Position numbers and translations under genes: made by a program. DNA of 32,121 nucleotides from a virus. Where the stretch lies: IMG/VR virus record IMGVR_UViG_3300022200_001565, positions 1-32,121 of that record, one strand, 5' to 3'. Positions 22,964 to 29,970 of this stretch are shown one piece after another. The notes beneath the pieces were generated by a model, which was not told the origin of the DNA, did not search any database, and saw only the letters and a list, made by a program, of their open reading frames with translations. Positions within the stretch are counted from its first letter, which is position 1. The number at the start of each line of letters is the position of its first letter.

Positions 22964-23392
22964 ATGTCTAACTCAATATCTACACTTGCCCAAATGAAGC
23001 TTGATGTTATCAAATATCACGCTGTAACTATTACTACAGACCTTGATGGAAACGAGATTACAAATCTCAAAGATCTGGTCAGCATGGCTAACGATGCTTG
23101 CTACACATCGCACAACAGCGTTATGTACGTCAAGAAGAGCATAGCAGATGCACTAGCTGACTATGACATTGCTTGCGAGAACAAAAATGCGCGCGATACG
23201 GAACGTCTTGAGCGATACCTCGCAATCCTCCAAGAACGCTATGCAGCGCAAGATGAGCGTCACCAAGCCGATGTAGACGTCTACTCAATCCTAACGAATG
23301 GCGAGCAATGGCAGCGCGCCAAGCCAAAAGCATCTGGCTCAAAGATGCCCAAGAAAGATCTCTCAGCACTGAGAGCGGTGGCTGCTTCATAG
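22964..23392 (+). CDS. First early gene, hypothetical protein
   Basis: 142 aa. The open frame continues upstream to 22844, but the start at 22964 has the early-block ribosome site AGGAGAAC and the upstream extension is a hairpin-rich leader. The protein is helical in the middle (SIADALADYDIACENKNARDTERLERYLAILQERY) with a basic tail. No family recognised. As the first gene of the early block it may modulate the host; that is only positional inference. Confidence 0.72.
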   Translation: MSNSISTLAQMKLDVIKYHAVTITTDLDGNEITNLKDLVSMANDACYTSHNSVMYVKKSIADALADYDIACENKNARDTERLERYLAILQERYAAQDERHQADVDVYSILTNGEQWQRAKPKASGSKMPKKDLSALRAVAAS

Positions 23393-23600
23393 CAGCCCCA
23401 CACTCTCAGATGGTAGCGCACCACGCGCTGCCATCAGCCACGTCCGTGAGGGCCGATGCTCCATATGCACATTGCGCGCGGGGCAAGGGGGCTTCACCGA
23501 CATTGCCGCGCTTTGTAAGATTTAATGCTTGCAAAGTTTTTTAAATATAAATAGCATTGCTTATACGCAATGTACAACCATAAGATAAAAGGAGAACAAT
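23393..23600 (+). promoter_or_regulatory. Gap with hairpins and weak promoter-like sequence
   Basis: 208 bp without a gene. A hairpin at 23409-23435 pairs GATGG-T-AGCGC with GCGCT-G-CCATC (11 bp with one G-U). Further on, TTGCAA (23529-23534) is followed after 17 bp by TAGCAT, and CATTGC (23555-23560) pairs with GCAATG (23567-23572). A second early promoter with an operator-like dyad is possible but weak. Confidence 0.4.
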
Positions 23601-24984: not shown

Positions 24985-25779
24985 ATGCAAACAGCAATCG
25001 AAACTATTACTCCAGCTTTAGCAAAAATTATGCTGGGTATGAACACACAAAATCGCAAGCTTAAGAAAAACCATGTTCAAAATATGGTTCGCGATATTCA
25101 AAACGGTTTATGGCAACTTAATGGTTCATCTATTTGTGTCTGTTCAGATGGAACATTGCTTGATGGTCAGCACAGATTACATGCCATTATTAAAGCTGAT
25201 AAATCTATAGAAACTATAGTTGTTCGAGGCTTGCCAAAGGATGCTAGAGATACAATTGACTCAGGCACAAAGCGCACAGTCAGCGATAGAATATCAATGA
25301 ATGGCGCTAGTTACGCAACGTCACAAGCATCTGTTGCTAATTTTTTAATTAGTGTTGCTCATAATACACCTCGATCTGTTACTGCTTCACAACAGGAAGT
25401 ATTATCTGTTATAGAAAATCACGACTTGATTCCAAGTTGTACTGTAGCAGACAAAGCTTTTCCTCGGGTGGGAACCTTATTAGCTGGGCTTCATTACATT
25501 GCTTGCTATCAAGACAATCATCAAAAGGCTGATGAGTTTATAGCTGTCTTTAAAAAAGGTGTGCCAACTTATGAACATGATGCCGCTCATTTTTGCCGCG
25601 AATATTTTATTGCTCAAGAAATGAAACAAGTAAGTATTCGCACTGAGTTTAAACGTAGAATTATAGTGAATGCGTTTAATAAATTCATAATGAATGAACC
25701 AATGCGAAGCGCGCGCTTTCCTGAAAAGTATTATATTCCTCAATGGACTCCTGAATGTGTTGGTGTTCACATTGGATAA
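24985..25779 (+). CDS. ParB/sulfiredoxin-like DGQHR-motif protein
   Basis: 264 aa from the ATG at 24985, which has a perfect AGGAGAAC site; the frame is open further upstream but the site fixes the start. The N-terminal part has NRKLKKNHVQNMVRDIQNG, then ICVCSDGTLLDGQHRLHAI with DGQHRLHA at residues 60-67. That is the ParB/sulfiredoxin-like fold seen in ParB, DndB-like and many phage proteins. The helical C-terminal two thirds has no recognised domain. It may bind nucleotide or DNA; the exact role is unknown. Confidence 0.72.
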   Translation: MQTAIETITPALAKIMLGMNTQNRKLKKNHVQNMVRDIQNGLWQLNGSSICVCSDGTLLDGQHRLHAIIKADKSIETIVVRGLPKDARDTIDSGTKRTVSDRISMNGASYATSQASVANFLISVAHNTPRSVTASQQEVLSVIENHDLIPSCTVADKAFPRVGTLLAGLHYIACYQDNHQKADEFIAVFKKGVPTYEHDAAHFCREYFIAQEMKQVSIRTEFKRRIIVNAFNKFIMNEPMRSARFPEKYYIPQWTPECVGVHIG

Positions 25780-25960
25780 TATTTGCTCTGAGTGTGAAGG
25801 CGATGGCGTTGTAGAAATCTACAAACGCCAAAGCTTTAGCCGTGATGTTGGTTACATAGATACAAAGACATGCACACAATGCAATGGATCAGGGTTTGAC
25901 AATGACTTCGATCCATTGCATACATGCAAGCATGAAGTCGTATCTCCAACTGATAAGTGA
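25757..25960 (+). CDS. DnaJ-type zinc-finger peptide (start uncertain)
   Basis: About 67 aa with two CxxCxGxG-like motifs, CSECEGDG and CTQCNGSGF, the pattern of the DnaJ cysteine-rich zinc domain, separated by about 24 residues. The only ATG (25694) would overlap the upstream gene by 85 bp, so GTG at 25757 or 25763 or TTG at 25772 is likelier; no clear ribosome site is visible. Small phage proteins with this motif are common and uncharacterised. Confidence 0.58.
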   Translation: MLVFTLDNICSECEGDGVVEIYKRQSFSRDVGYIDTKTCTQCNGSGFDNDFDPLHTCKHEVVSPTDK

Positions 25961-26216
25961 CAAAGCTTGGAAAGCTAATGTAAAACTTGAGGATGCCTTT
26001 GATAAAGCAGGGGCTTCCTCAACAACGTATTGGCGTACCGTAAATGAGAGAACAGAGTTAAAGTATGATACGGCATTGAGAGTGTTCAATGCAATCGAAG
26101 AACTTTACCAGATTCAACAAGCCCGTGAGTATTCCAAAGGATTACGAGAAGCTAATCAAAGCGTTGATCGGCGCGCGATTAGAAAAAGGTTTGAGCCAAG
26201 AATCCTTATCCCATAA
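25932..26216 (+). CDS. HTH protein, Cro/repressor-like
   Basis: 94 aa from the ATG at 25932. Residues about 15-52 (LEDAFDKAGASSTTYWRTVNERTELKYDTALRVFNAI across two helices) have the spacing of a phage helix-turn-helix domain. It lies in the early block next to a second HTH gene that overlaps its end by 128 bp in another frame, so its basic C-terminus is doubly coding. Likely a transcriptional regulator; target unknown. Confidence 0.66.
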   Translation: MKSYLQLISDKAWKANVKLEDAFDKAGASSTTYWRTVNERTELKYDTALRVFNAIEELYQIQQAREYSKGLREANQSVDRRAIRKRFEPRILIP

Positions 26217-26343
26217 GATTGGCTGCACCTCTTCTCTGATTCACAAATGGGAATCTCACAAGAGAATACCGTCTGGCTTTATGCTTATCTGCTGGCTTGA
26301 TGCTTTGGACTATCAAATAGATGTCACCAAAAAAGGTTCATAG
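26089..26343 (+). CDS. XRE-family HTH regulator
   Basis: 84 aa. Residues about 22-75 form a classic XRE helix-turn-helix: LIGARLEKGLSQESLSHKIG, then CTSSLIHKWESHKRIPS and LICWLDALDYQI. The ATG at 26089 lies deep in the preceding HTH gene; GTG at 26125 (SIPKDYEK) is an alternative that shortens the overlap. It probably binds an operator in this genome, perhaps one of the palindromes listed here. Confident of the domain, less so of the start. Confidence 0.72.
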   Translation: MQSKNFTRFNKPVSIPKDYEKLIKALIGARLEKGLSQESLSHKIGCTSSLIHKWESHKRIPSGFMLICWLDALDYQIDVTKKGS

Positions 26344-26626
26344 AATATTTTGCATTATCTGCAATGCGCAAACAGAATGGTTTGTCGCAGTGCTTAAACA
26401 AAATTCTTCTGCATCTTATGAAAAGCATTGGTACATTTGCAGACGCTGCTATGAGGAGGACCAATGGCAAACCGTAATAAAAACAAAGGAACCTACCACG
26501 AAAAGTGGTTTGTCAACTGGCTCAAAGAAGCGGGTATCAAAGCGAAAAGGCAACCGCTCAGTGGCAGCTTGGGAGGAGAGTATAGCGGCGATCTCAAGCT
26601 CGAACTCAACGGATACGAATTGGTAG
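26321..26626 (+). CDS. Small zinc-ribbon protein
   Basis: 101 aa. Two CxxC knuckles, CIIC (residues 11-14) and CRRC (40-43), about 25 residues apart, suggest a zinc ribbon in the first half. The second half is Ser/Lys-rich and overlaps the resolvase gene by 163 bp in another frame, so only the first half may be under constraint. It starts inside the end of the XRE gene. Role unknown. Confidence 0.5.
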   Translation: MSPKKVHRIFCIICNAQTEWFVAVLKQNSSASYEKHWYICRRCYEEDQWQTVIKTKEPTTKSGLSTGSKKRVSKRKGNRSVAAWEESIAAISSSNSTDTNW

Positions 26627-26805
26627 GCGAAGTCAAATACCGTGACAAGTCTACCTTTCCCAGCCCCTTCAAAGTTTTAGAAGGCAGAGACATTGCTTTT
26701 TACAAACGGAGAACAGGCAAGCCGCAAACCTTAGTCATCATTGAAGGTGACACATTCCTTAAACTAATGGAGAACTCTAATGAAAAAGATAAAGAACCTA
26801 GCTGA
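26464..26805 (+). CDS. Hjc-like Holliday junction resolvase / PD-(D/E)XK nuclease
   Basis: 113 aa. The order NKGTYHEKWF (Glu13), GGEYSGDLKL (Asp43), VGEVKYR (Glu56, Lys58) matches archaeal Hjc-type resolvases, with the E...D...ExK metal site and a basic, Arg-rich loop between. It would cut branched recombination intermediates before packaging. GAGGA lies upstream of the ATG. It is close to the exonuclease and annealing protein, a consistent recombination set. RusA is not a match. Confidence 0.78.
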   Translation: MANRNKNKGTYHEKWFVNWLKEAGIKAKRQPLSGSLGGEYSGDLKLELNGYELVGEVKYRDKSTFPSPFKVLEGRDIAFYKRRTGKPQTLVIIEGDTFLKLMENSNEKDKEPS

Positions 26806-27841: not shown

Positions 27842-27852
27842 GGAGAACAATC

Positions 27853-28233
27853 ATGGCACAGAGAACAGTGACTGATGAAATAAAGTTCAGCGACAATGAG
27901 CTTTGGAAAGCAATGGAATCTCAAGTAATGGATTTAGTTTCTGATAGAGCTATTCAATATTTAACAGCTAAAGCAGTTCAATATCATGTTGATGAATCCA
28001 TTGATAAATACTTTAGTCGCATAAAAGAAATAATAGAAGATGATCCACATGATCTTGTTGACGCAAGTGAAATAGCATTTTCAAATGAAGGTTTTATGGA
28101 AGCAACATACATAGCAGTACAACTTGTACTCGAAGAAGTCCTGCCACAAATTCATTTAAAACCAGAATGGAAAACAAAAAAAGATTGGATAGAAATGATC
28201 CAAGCAAAAAAGGAGAACACCAATGACACTTGA
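27853..28233 (+). CDS. Hypothetical protein between exonuclease and annealing protein
   Basis: 126 aa, acidic and helical (YHVDESIDKYFSRIKEIIEDDPHD). It has a perfect AGGAGAAC site and overlaps the annealing-protein start by 11 bp. No recognised family. Its place inside the recombination pair suggests an accessory role but nothing in the sequence proves it. Confidence 0.68.
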   Translation: MAQRTVTDEIKFSDNELWKAMESQVMDLVSDRAIQYLTAKAVQYHVDESIDKYFSRIKEIIEDDPHDLVDASEIAFSNEGFMEATYIAVQLVLEEVLPQIHLKPEWKTKKDWIEMIQAKKENTNDT

Positions 28234-28684
28234 AACCACAATGGATATATGGGATGCGCTTGCGCAATCTGATCCACAATATCTAAAACCAGTAAGCTTT
28301 GGATCACGCAGCTTCACGGCTATTGACCCACAGTATCAAGTCAAAAAGATGACAGAACACTTCGGCCCTGTTGGCGAAGGCTGGGGTTGGCACAATCAAA
28401 CAGAGATAGTGCCTCTAAGCAACGGAGACAGCGCTGTATTAGCGCATGTAACTATCTGGCATGGGAACCAAGGAAATATGTTTGGCCCCTTCACAGGCTG
28501 TCGCAAGTTCTTTGATGCTTCAAAAGGTAGGCTGGCAGAAGATGCGCCGAAGATGGCTATCACAGATGGGCTGACAAAAGCGCTATCTCACTTGGGCTGC
28601 GATGCGGATGTGTTCTTGGGTAAGATGGATGGGAATAAGTATTCCGCAGACAGTGTTCCTAATGGCGCGGGGCAAGCATGGTAA
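28223..28684 (+). CDS. Single-strand annealing protein (Rad52/ERF-like)
   Basis: 153 aa. The segment SFGSRSFTAIDPQYQVKKMTEHFGPVGEGWGW, then AHVTIWHGNQ and, near the C-terminus, APKMAITDGLTKALSHLGCDADVF follow the layout of phage Rad52-like annealing proteins (beta-strand core, long helix with the TKALSxLG pattern). It would coat and anneal single strands made by the YqaJ exonuclease. Shorter than many relatives. The exact subfamily cannot be set without a profile search. Confidence 0.78.
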   Translation: MTLETTMDIWDALAQSDPQYLKPVSFGSRSFTAIDPQYQVKKMTEHFGPVGEGWGWHNQTEIVPLSNGDSAVLAHVTIWHGNQGNMFGPFTGCRKFFDASKGRLAEDAPKMAITDGLTKALSHLGCDADVFLGKMDGNKYSADSVPNGAGQAW

Positions 28685-28932
28685 CTAAGAAAGTTACTAA
28701 ACTCTGGAAGGGTGAATACCTTTCAATCAGGACATATGAGGTGCAGCCCGCGATCAAAGCGGGCGGGCTGCGCCTCATATATCAAGACAAGCAAATGTTC
28801 TTAGATCCAGTACAGCTACAAAATCTAAGACCATCATCTAAAGTTTTCAAATCAAAAACAGGAGGTAAAGATTACCAACTAATAGATATTAAGTTTGTCC
28901 CACAGGACAGCAAGCAAATGAAACTATTATAA
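28678..28932 (+). CDS. Small hypothetical protein containing a large hairpin in its gene
   Basis: 84 aa, basic (KKVTKLWKGEYLSIRTYEV; KVFKSKTGGKDYQLIDIKF). It starts in the last codons of the annealing protein. Codons about 19-34 are encoded by an almost perfect 18-bp-arm inverted repeat (28734-28780), much more GC-rich than the rest of the gene. No family recognised. Confidence 0.62.
   Translation: MVTKKVTKLWKGEYLSIRTYEVQPAIKAGGLRLIYQDKQMFLDPVQLQNLRPSSKVFKSKTGGKDYQLIDIKFVPQDSKQMKLL
28734..28780 (+). repeat. 18-bp-arm inverted repeat inside a coding gene
   Basis: Arms 28734-28751 and 28763-28780 are complementary at 17 of 18 positions (the exception pairs G-U in RNA), with an 11-base loop. 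Core GCAGCCCGC / GCGGGCTGC. It lies in frame inside the 84-residue gene and stands out as GC-rich. Confidence 0.75.
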
Positions 28933-28945
28933 AGGAGCCAGAAGC

Positions 28946-29317
28946 ATGGCAGAATATGACAACACAAACACAGGCGCAGCATTTGCACCATTCCCAACAC
29001 AACAAATGATTTTGCAAGGGAAGGTTGATATTGATATGAAGCAATCCAAGATTGTTTGCGTCAAAGATCAAACCAAAAACGGCAGAAATATTGTTGAGGT
29101 TTATGCAAAGATTGCAGTGTTGTTTGAGAATGACAAGAAGGGCAATGAAAGCGCGCCAGATTACTCTGGCCCAATTGATGACAATGACGTGCTAAAGATT
29201 GCAGGTTGGAAGCGCATGAAAGATGGCAAGCCTTATATGTCATTCAAAGTATCAGATAAACAGAATGGTTCGCATGGCGCACAAAGTGGATTGCCAAACG
29301 ATGCAATACCATTCTAA
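28946..29317 (+). CDS. SSB-like protein (putative)
   Basis: 123 aa. The body has beta-rich sequence (KIVCVKDQTKNGRNIVEVYAKIAVLF) and a DUF736-like stretch (ESAPDYSGPIDDNDVLKIAGWKRMKDGKPYMSFKVSD in outline). The last residues are LPNDAIPF, close to the acidic-hydrophobic IPF tail by which single-strand binding proteins recruit partners. AAAGGAG upstream of ATG. It ends the recombination run and precedes an intrinsic terminator. SSB function is an inference. Confidence 0.62.
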   Translation: MAEYDNTNTGAAFAPFPTQQMILQGKVDIDMKQSKIVCVKDQTKNGRNIVEVYAKIAVLFENDKKGNESAPDYSGPIDDNDVLKIAGWKRMKDGKPYMSFKVSDKQNGSHGAQSGLPNDAIPF

Positions 29318-29375: not shown

Positions 29376-29402
29376 GACGCAGCTTTGGCTGCGTCTTTTT
29401 TT
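29376..29402 (+). terminator. Intrinsic terminator at the end of the recombination genes
   Basis: Perfect 8-bp GC-rich stem GACGCAGC / GCTGCGTC with a TTTG loop, followed directly by seven T. It lies between the SSB-like gene and the next plus-strand gene. Confidence 0.9.
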
Positions 29403-29413
29403 AGGAGTGCACC

Positions 29414-29647
29414 ATGATAGAATTTTTCACTATCTTAATGATCGACTATGAAATGCCAGCGCATAACGCCGCACCACTTGCAAGCATAGTCTACGCTTCA
29501 GAGAACCACTGCCAGCAAGTAATGGATCAGGGTCTAGCTGACCCAATCTATGACCATATCGTAAAACTCTACGGCAATAACATCTATATGACCTGCGTAG
29601 AAACAGACGTTGTGTCATCCGTACTTAGACCAAGGGCAAGACCATGA
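29414..29647 (+). CDS. Small hypothetical protein after the terminator
   Basis: 77 aa. The N-terminal IEFFTILMIDYEMPA is hydrophobic; the rest is mixed (SENHCQQVMDQGLADPIYDH). TTAGGAG lies immediately after the terminator T-tract, about ten bases before the ATG, so expression needs read-through or a new start. ATGA-type overlap with the next gene. No family recognised. Confidence 0.66.
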   Translation: MIEFFTILMIDYEMPAHNAAPLASIVYASENHCQQVMDQGLADPIYDHIVKLYGNNIYMTCVETDVVSSVLRPRARP

Positions 29648-29970
29648 CCGAAGAACAAATGCTACAAGCAATGCTTGATGACGCCAAACAAATACGCAAA
29701 CGCTATCGTGATAAATGGGGCGGCAAACCAGACCCCAAAGCAAAAGAACCAGAGCCTAAGCCAAAAGAGATCGAGACGACAGCCGCGCCCACAAGAGGCA
29801 GCGGCTGGCGTAACGATCCACTTAGCCAAAAAGAAATAGATGACATCCTATACTTTCAAAGCAAGGGATGGTGCGTAACATCTACGGCTTTGTTCTTGGG
29901 CCTCAATGACAAAACTGTAAGGAAGTATCGTGAGGATGCCAGTCGGGACCAACACCCCCAAGAATCTTAA
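29644..29970 (+). CDS. Putative DNA-binding protein with C-terminal HTH
   Basis: 108 aa. Acidic/basic helical N-terminus, a Lys/Pro/Glu-rich linker (residues about 37-45), then SQKEIDDILYFQSKGWCVTSTALFLGLNDKTVRKYRED, which has the form of a resolvase-type helix-turn-helix (residues about 62-98). It is the last early gene and faces the lysis block tail-to-tail. Could regulate the early-to-late switch; that is inference. Confidence 0.66.
   Translation: MTEEQMLQAMLDDAKQIRKRYRDKWGGKPDPKAKEPEPKPKEIETTAAPTRGSGWRNDPLSQKEIDDILYFQSKGWCVTSTALFLGLNDKTVRKYREDASRDQHPQES

Follow-up and report, generated by a model that had tools for sequence, protein, structure and literature searches.

A compact hairpin inside a small gene next to ssb is kept with compensatory changes in uncultured marine phages

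Introduction

Phage mRNAs are known to carry cis-acting stem-loops, RNase III sites and translational operators among them. Phage origins, too, can lie in early genes; oriL of SPP1, which consists of direct repeats and an AT-rich region, is located in gene 38 (PMC6316719). Palindromes within coding sequence have been described as well, the most striking cases being those of Nematomorpha mitochondria, which have many long repeats of up to 284 bp (PMC6649704). Polymerase template switching can make hairpins and maintain them with compensatory changes (PMC8794818), and in yeast it has altered coding inverted repeats (PMC8604942). Coding palindromes, template-switch hairpins, and cis elements in early phage genes are already known.

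Here we describe a hairpin within an 84-codon gene of a marine virus (IMG/VR record IMGVR_UViG_3300022200_001565; we refer to the whole analyzed stretch of 32,121 nt as the window). Like the cis-acting stem-loops of phage mRNAs, it would be part of a polycistronic early message, and it sits beside a DNA-metabolism gene; unlike them, it lies inside a reading frame rather than between genes, and it is a candidate element that matches no Rfam family. It resembles the Nematomorpha palindromes in that an inverted repeat occupies an intact gene, both arms encode conserved protein, and protein and fold are kept together (PMC6649704). It differs from them in having one 18-bp stem, kept via compensatory changes between groups of relatives. 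Compensatory changes and a possible one-step homogenization of the arms are shared with template-switch hairpins (PMC8794818). Unlike in those hairpins, silent positions here seem to be under constraint throughout the block, in the loop too, and the sense strand is somewhat favored, which suggests selection as well. As with SPP1 oriL, we would be dealing with a cis element within an early phage gene (PMC6316719), but the element in the window is an inverted repeat, and iterons were not found.

Results

A strong hairpin in frame within a short gene

The first-pass annotation had described a GC-rich palindrome lying in frame in a gene, with 18-bp arms, one G-U pair, and an 11-base loop. Arm pairing, fold, and GC content all bore this out (Table 1). 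Of the 18 positions in the arms, 17 are complementary, and the remaining pair (T28742/G28772) is G-U in RNA. A repeat finder extended the arms to 21 nt (28731–28783) at 90%, the longest inverted repeat of the window. The predicted RNA fold reaches −39.3 kcal/mol, compared with −16.2 ± 2.8 in dinucleotide shuffles (z = −8.3), and the hairpin ranked first in a 60-nt scan of the + strand of the window (−38.7; mean of the scan, −9.1; runner-up, −30.7). GC content is ∼0.62–0.64 across the block and 0.26–0.48 in the flanks. The hairpin is in frame with the 84-codon ORF, and, as in a coding palindrome, both arms encode parts of the conserved core of the protein (E21–A25 and G29–L33).

A terminator scanner does not list the hairpin, and no T-run follows the stem on either strand, so it is not an intrinsic terminator. 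Elsewhere in the window, the next-best + strand folds lie at 23371–23430 (−30.7 kcal/mol) and 29761–29820 (−29.6 kcal/mol), and a perfect 12-bp inverted repeat with a 19-nt spacer (25879–25921) is found where ORFs 25694–25960 and 25884–26216 overlap.

Table 1. Features of the hairpin locus (window coordinates)
Feature	Position	Strand	Remarks
Upstream gene, phrog_7838, labeled exonuclease	28223..28684	+	7-nt overlap with start of 84-aa ORF
84-aa ORF with hairpin	28678..28932	+	basic, pI about 9.9; ATG overlaps stop of upstream gene
5' arm of hairpin	28734..28751	+	codes Y20 to A25, N-terminal part of helix 19-27
Hairpin loop, 11 nt, GATCAAAGCGG	28752..28762	+	same letters in groups A and B
3' arm of hairpin	28763..28780	+	codes G29 to Y35, strand 31-35
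Block shared letter for letter (51/51 nt) by L003 and L021 of group A	28735..28785	+	borders near stem ends
SSB-like gene	28946..29317	+	directly downstream of 84-aa gene
Terminator-like stem with U-tail	29376..29395	+	3' of ssb; probable transcript end

The gene, its neighbors, and its phage

The + strand genes of the locus encode a RusA-like resolvase, a YqaJ/RecE-like exonuclease, the phrog_7838 recombination protein, the 84-aa protein, and an SSB-like protein. The start of the 84-aa gene is likely to be translationally coupled to the overlapping phrog_7838 gene, and the operon probably ends after ssb at the U-tailed stem. The gene had been annotated as early; this timing is suggested only by the neighbors (the YqaJ/RecE-like exonuclease, the phrog_7838 protein, and SSB).

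The structure of the 84-aa protein was predicted confidently (pLDDT 88.9). Searches of Pfam, NCBIfam, and PHROG returned no family for it, and no PDB fold matched the model significantly (Foldseek E of 0.4 at best). The model gave weak matches to the Hjc/RecU Holliday junction resolvases (VIA-align Z at most 3.8), and two confident matches in BFVD were both without names. No relatives were found in the genome contigs searched.

Among catalogued terminases, the one nearest to the terminase of the window, at 65% identity, comes from Pelagibacter phage EXVC031P Hodr; in the 29957 of 34238 Hodr bases that were searched, the 84-aa gene had no relative. In the catalog, a distant relative of the protein (31%) turned up only in phage HTVC112P, which lacks such a hairpin. 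Since GC content is 42% in the window and 33% in Hodr, the host may be another marine bacterium. Two stretches near the locus are missing from the closest relatives of the window, L003 and L004: ∼360 bp at 27846–28206, holding an ORF for a 126-aa protein (27853–28233), and ∼235 bp at 29409–29643, with ORF 29414–29647. A 36% relative of the 126-aa protein sits downstream of ssb in L018, and ORF 27853–28233 is probably a recently acquired or moved gene.

The hairpin residues are not an insertion

A sharply bounded, GC-rich palindrome in frame could be a small mobile element, like the palindromic elements of Rickettsia and Wolbachia or REPs, and the first-pass annotation had listed a small inserted palindromic element among its options. 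We aligned 80 relatives of the 84-residue protein, drawn from viral contigs, and found no gap across hairpin residues 18–36, which form the conserved core of the protein (Y-E-x-x-x-A-I-K-x-G-G-[LM]). There were no further copies of the hairpin in the window and only orthologous ones in 88 related loci, and the exact core had no match in 84,980 species genomes. The gap-free alignment refutes insertion, dispersed copies were not found, and we regard a mobile origin as scarcely credible. A scan of viral contigs for the loop motif gave, among the matches listed, orthologues and unrelated matches. In L069/L140 the same loop and a partly similar palindrome occur at an unrelated place, which we took as chance.

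Codon choice pairs beyond what the protein needs

We distinguished group A (the window, L003, and L021), its sister group B (L005–L020), group C (L024, L159, and L162), group D, whose protein is about 51% identical, and group E (L266, L268, and L270), found with more relatives. As a protein-only null, codons were recoded synonymously, using either phage codon usage or GC-matched codons. None of 1000 recodings reached the fold of the window (z = −6.5 and −4.3, respectively). With phage codon usage, z was −5.3 in L021, −4.4 in L005, and −4.2 in L012, and in these three as in the window the observed fold was beyond all or nearly all samples; GC-matched codons gave weaker values (−3.5, −2.6, and −2.2, in the same order). 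A second null, in which the gene's own synonymous codons are permuted along the gene, localized the signal to the hairpin site. Here z was about −7 for the window, with means of −7.8 in A, −5.1 in B, and −5.3 in D, values of about −2.4 to −3.5 in C and −3.0 to −1.8 in E, and about −0.5 in other relatives.

The palindrome could in principle be due to chance, or follow from peptide conservation together with GC-rich codons, and homologues that keep the peptide and lose the pairing had been named beforehand as evidence for protein constraint alone. The conserved peptide does encode complementary codons, and pairing is indeed missing in the majority of distant homologues, so the hairpin is not essential to the gene. 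In groups A–E, on the other hand, codon choice pairs far beyond the protein requirement, and protein constraint alone is therefore insufficient. The synonymous-codon nulls reject this explanation in groups A, B, and D, with weaker rejection in C and E, and compensatory synonymous changes are seen (below); we consider it strongly disfavored.

Silent sites in the hairpin block rarely change

Within groups A and B, synonymous change is nearly absent from the hairpin block. Outside the 51-nt block, all of which they share, L003 and L021 are about 69%–70% identical across the gene, with identity declining at the stem ends. Among codons for the same residue, the fractions that were identical in the hairpin and in the rest of the gene were 17/17 and 21/43 (Fisher p = 7e-5), 16/17 and 23/42 (p = 0.003), 15/16 and 33/57 (p = 0.006), and 16/17 and 41/61 (p = 0.02) in four pairs taken within groups A and B. 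Group B shows a weaker form of the effect (Fisher p = 0.006 and 0.02), with many other 48-nt stretches equally conserved. Comparing 4.2 kb of the window with L021 turned up just one further 48-nt stretch without a difference (26494–26541); double coding may explain it, because ORFs 26321–26626 and 26464–26805 overlap there.

Compensatory changes across relatives

Groups A, B, C, and E share one hairpin register despite differing sequence. Over these groups 79.9% of cells are paired, compared with 28%–47% in slid-partner controls, and six pairs have changed on both sides with pairing kept. The covariation score was 0.218, against 0.098 ± 0.014 in shuffles, none of which (0/500) reached the observed value. 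These double-sided changes represent few independent events, lying between clades and clustered by clade. Several of the compensations run through synonymous codons (Arg CGC/AGG, Gly GGG/GGC, and Gln CAG/CAA with Leu CTG/TTG). Val/Arg GTG..CGC is replaced by His/Arg CAT..AGG, Pro/Gly CCC..GGG by Ala/Gly GCC..GGC, and Gln/Leu CAG..CTG by CAA..TTG, or by Glu/Leu GAG..CTC in C. The hairpin of group D covers these codons too, but was built separately and is in a different register. A hairpin label on the protein tree requires about six changes, on a tree that has few columns and is weakly resolved. The loop is identical in A and B but varies among C, D, and E, and thus offers no sign of a shared motif for protein recognition. 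An attenuator, an RNA-processing site, and a protein-binding site had all been proposed at the outset; compensatory changes and synonymous-site conservation lend support to cis-acting roles of this kind.

The strongest rival to a cis-acting stem-loop is that the hairpin has no function: the codons for the E-x-[QE]-x-A-A ... G-G-L-x-L motif would naturally face complementary ones, and the coding palindrome would have been made and kept up by template switching of the polymerase between these quasi-inverted repeats, which homogenized the arms. The process is capable of this, as noted above, and the codon pairs GAG/CTC, CAG/CTG, and GCC/GGC fit such a predisposition. Groups A and B differ at three adjacent bases (GTG/CAT), as multinucleotide events would leave them, and two hairpin registers at one site fit as well. 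Template switching alone, however, does not predict strongly slowed synonymous change over the whole block, loop included (A and B), nor does it predict the sense-strand G-U pairs in D and E or the stable A-G mismatch in group B. We judge it unlikely as the full explanation, while taking it more seriously than any other rival.

RNA or DNA

We compared the sense and antisense folds, each with its own synonymous null. Sense was better in B, D, E, and L170 and about equal to antisense in group A (z = −7.3 and −7.2); in group C the preference was reversed, sense being slightly worse. The preference is small overall, and the comparison leans, not decisively, toward the RNA level. Wobble pairs numbered seven in sense and three in antisense, which is not above the background ratio of 88:45; since the background is itself about 2:1, G-U counts are uninformative on strand.

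The hairpin might instead work as DNA, either as a stem-loop in single-stranded phage DNA or as a cruciform, and be used for priming, replication, or recombination or as the target of a phage protein, for instance SSB or the 84-aa protein. Its location in a recombination/SSB cassette, the SPP1 precedent, the near-perfect arms of group A on both strands, and the weak resemblance of the 84-aa model to Holliday junction resolvases would suit such a role. Against it, that resemblance falls far short of a meaningful match, the direct repeats nearby are two-copy repeats of chance size and not of iteron type, GC skew tracks gene direction and marks no origin at the hairpin, and antisense folds are clearly worse than sense in D, E, and L170. 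We think a DNA-level element rather improbable.

Association with the downstream SSB gene

Relatives were clustered at 70% identity, giving 17 clusters with downstream data. The hairpin occurs in three of the six clusters with SSB directly next door (A/B/C as one, D, and E) and in one of the 11 without (L170), so that SSB lies directly downstream in three of four hairpin-bearing lineage clusters. L033, L035, and L164 have SSB next door but no hairpin. The association is suggestive only (Mann–Whitney p = 0.04, Fisher p = 0.10), and phylogeny is only partly accounted for in these tests.

Discussion

Our preferred reading, to which we assign a probability of roughly 0.45, is that of a cis-acting coding-sequence stem-loop, selected for its fold, most likely in mRNA, that governs the 84-aa/ssb part of the early recombination operon. 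The support is good for selection on the fold and moderate for action at the RNA level. As for its exact action, we infer that the stem-loop would operate in an early polycistronic mRNA spanning the 84-aa gene and ssb. After initiating at the coupled ATG (28678), a ribosome would meet the stem about 56 nt further on. The stem might then slow the ribosome or, with few ribosomes on the message, be bound or cleaved, setting the output of the 84-aa protein relative to ssb as well as the stability of the downstream message.

A more specific version, which we find distinctly doubtful, is an autoregulatory switch in which the 84-aa protein or SSB binds the hairpin in its own message (or the folded DNA). 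If true, autoregulation would couple the supply of recombination and ssDNA-binding protein to free single-stranded DNA, and the lineage-specific hairpins over the same codons would match their own proteins.

The comparative evidence for the stem-loop is unusually good for so short an element, and compensatory evolution is seldom documented for structured elements within phage coding sequences. The hairpin described here is compact and sits beside a recombination/SSB cassette in marine phages, uncultured relatives of a pelagiphage, several lineages of which have kept it or built it anew over the same codons. These properties make it a clean natural test of selection versus template switching in keeping coding hairpins paired.
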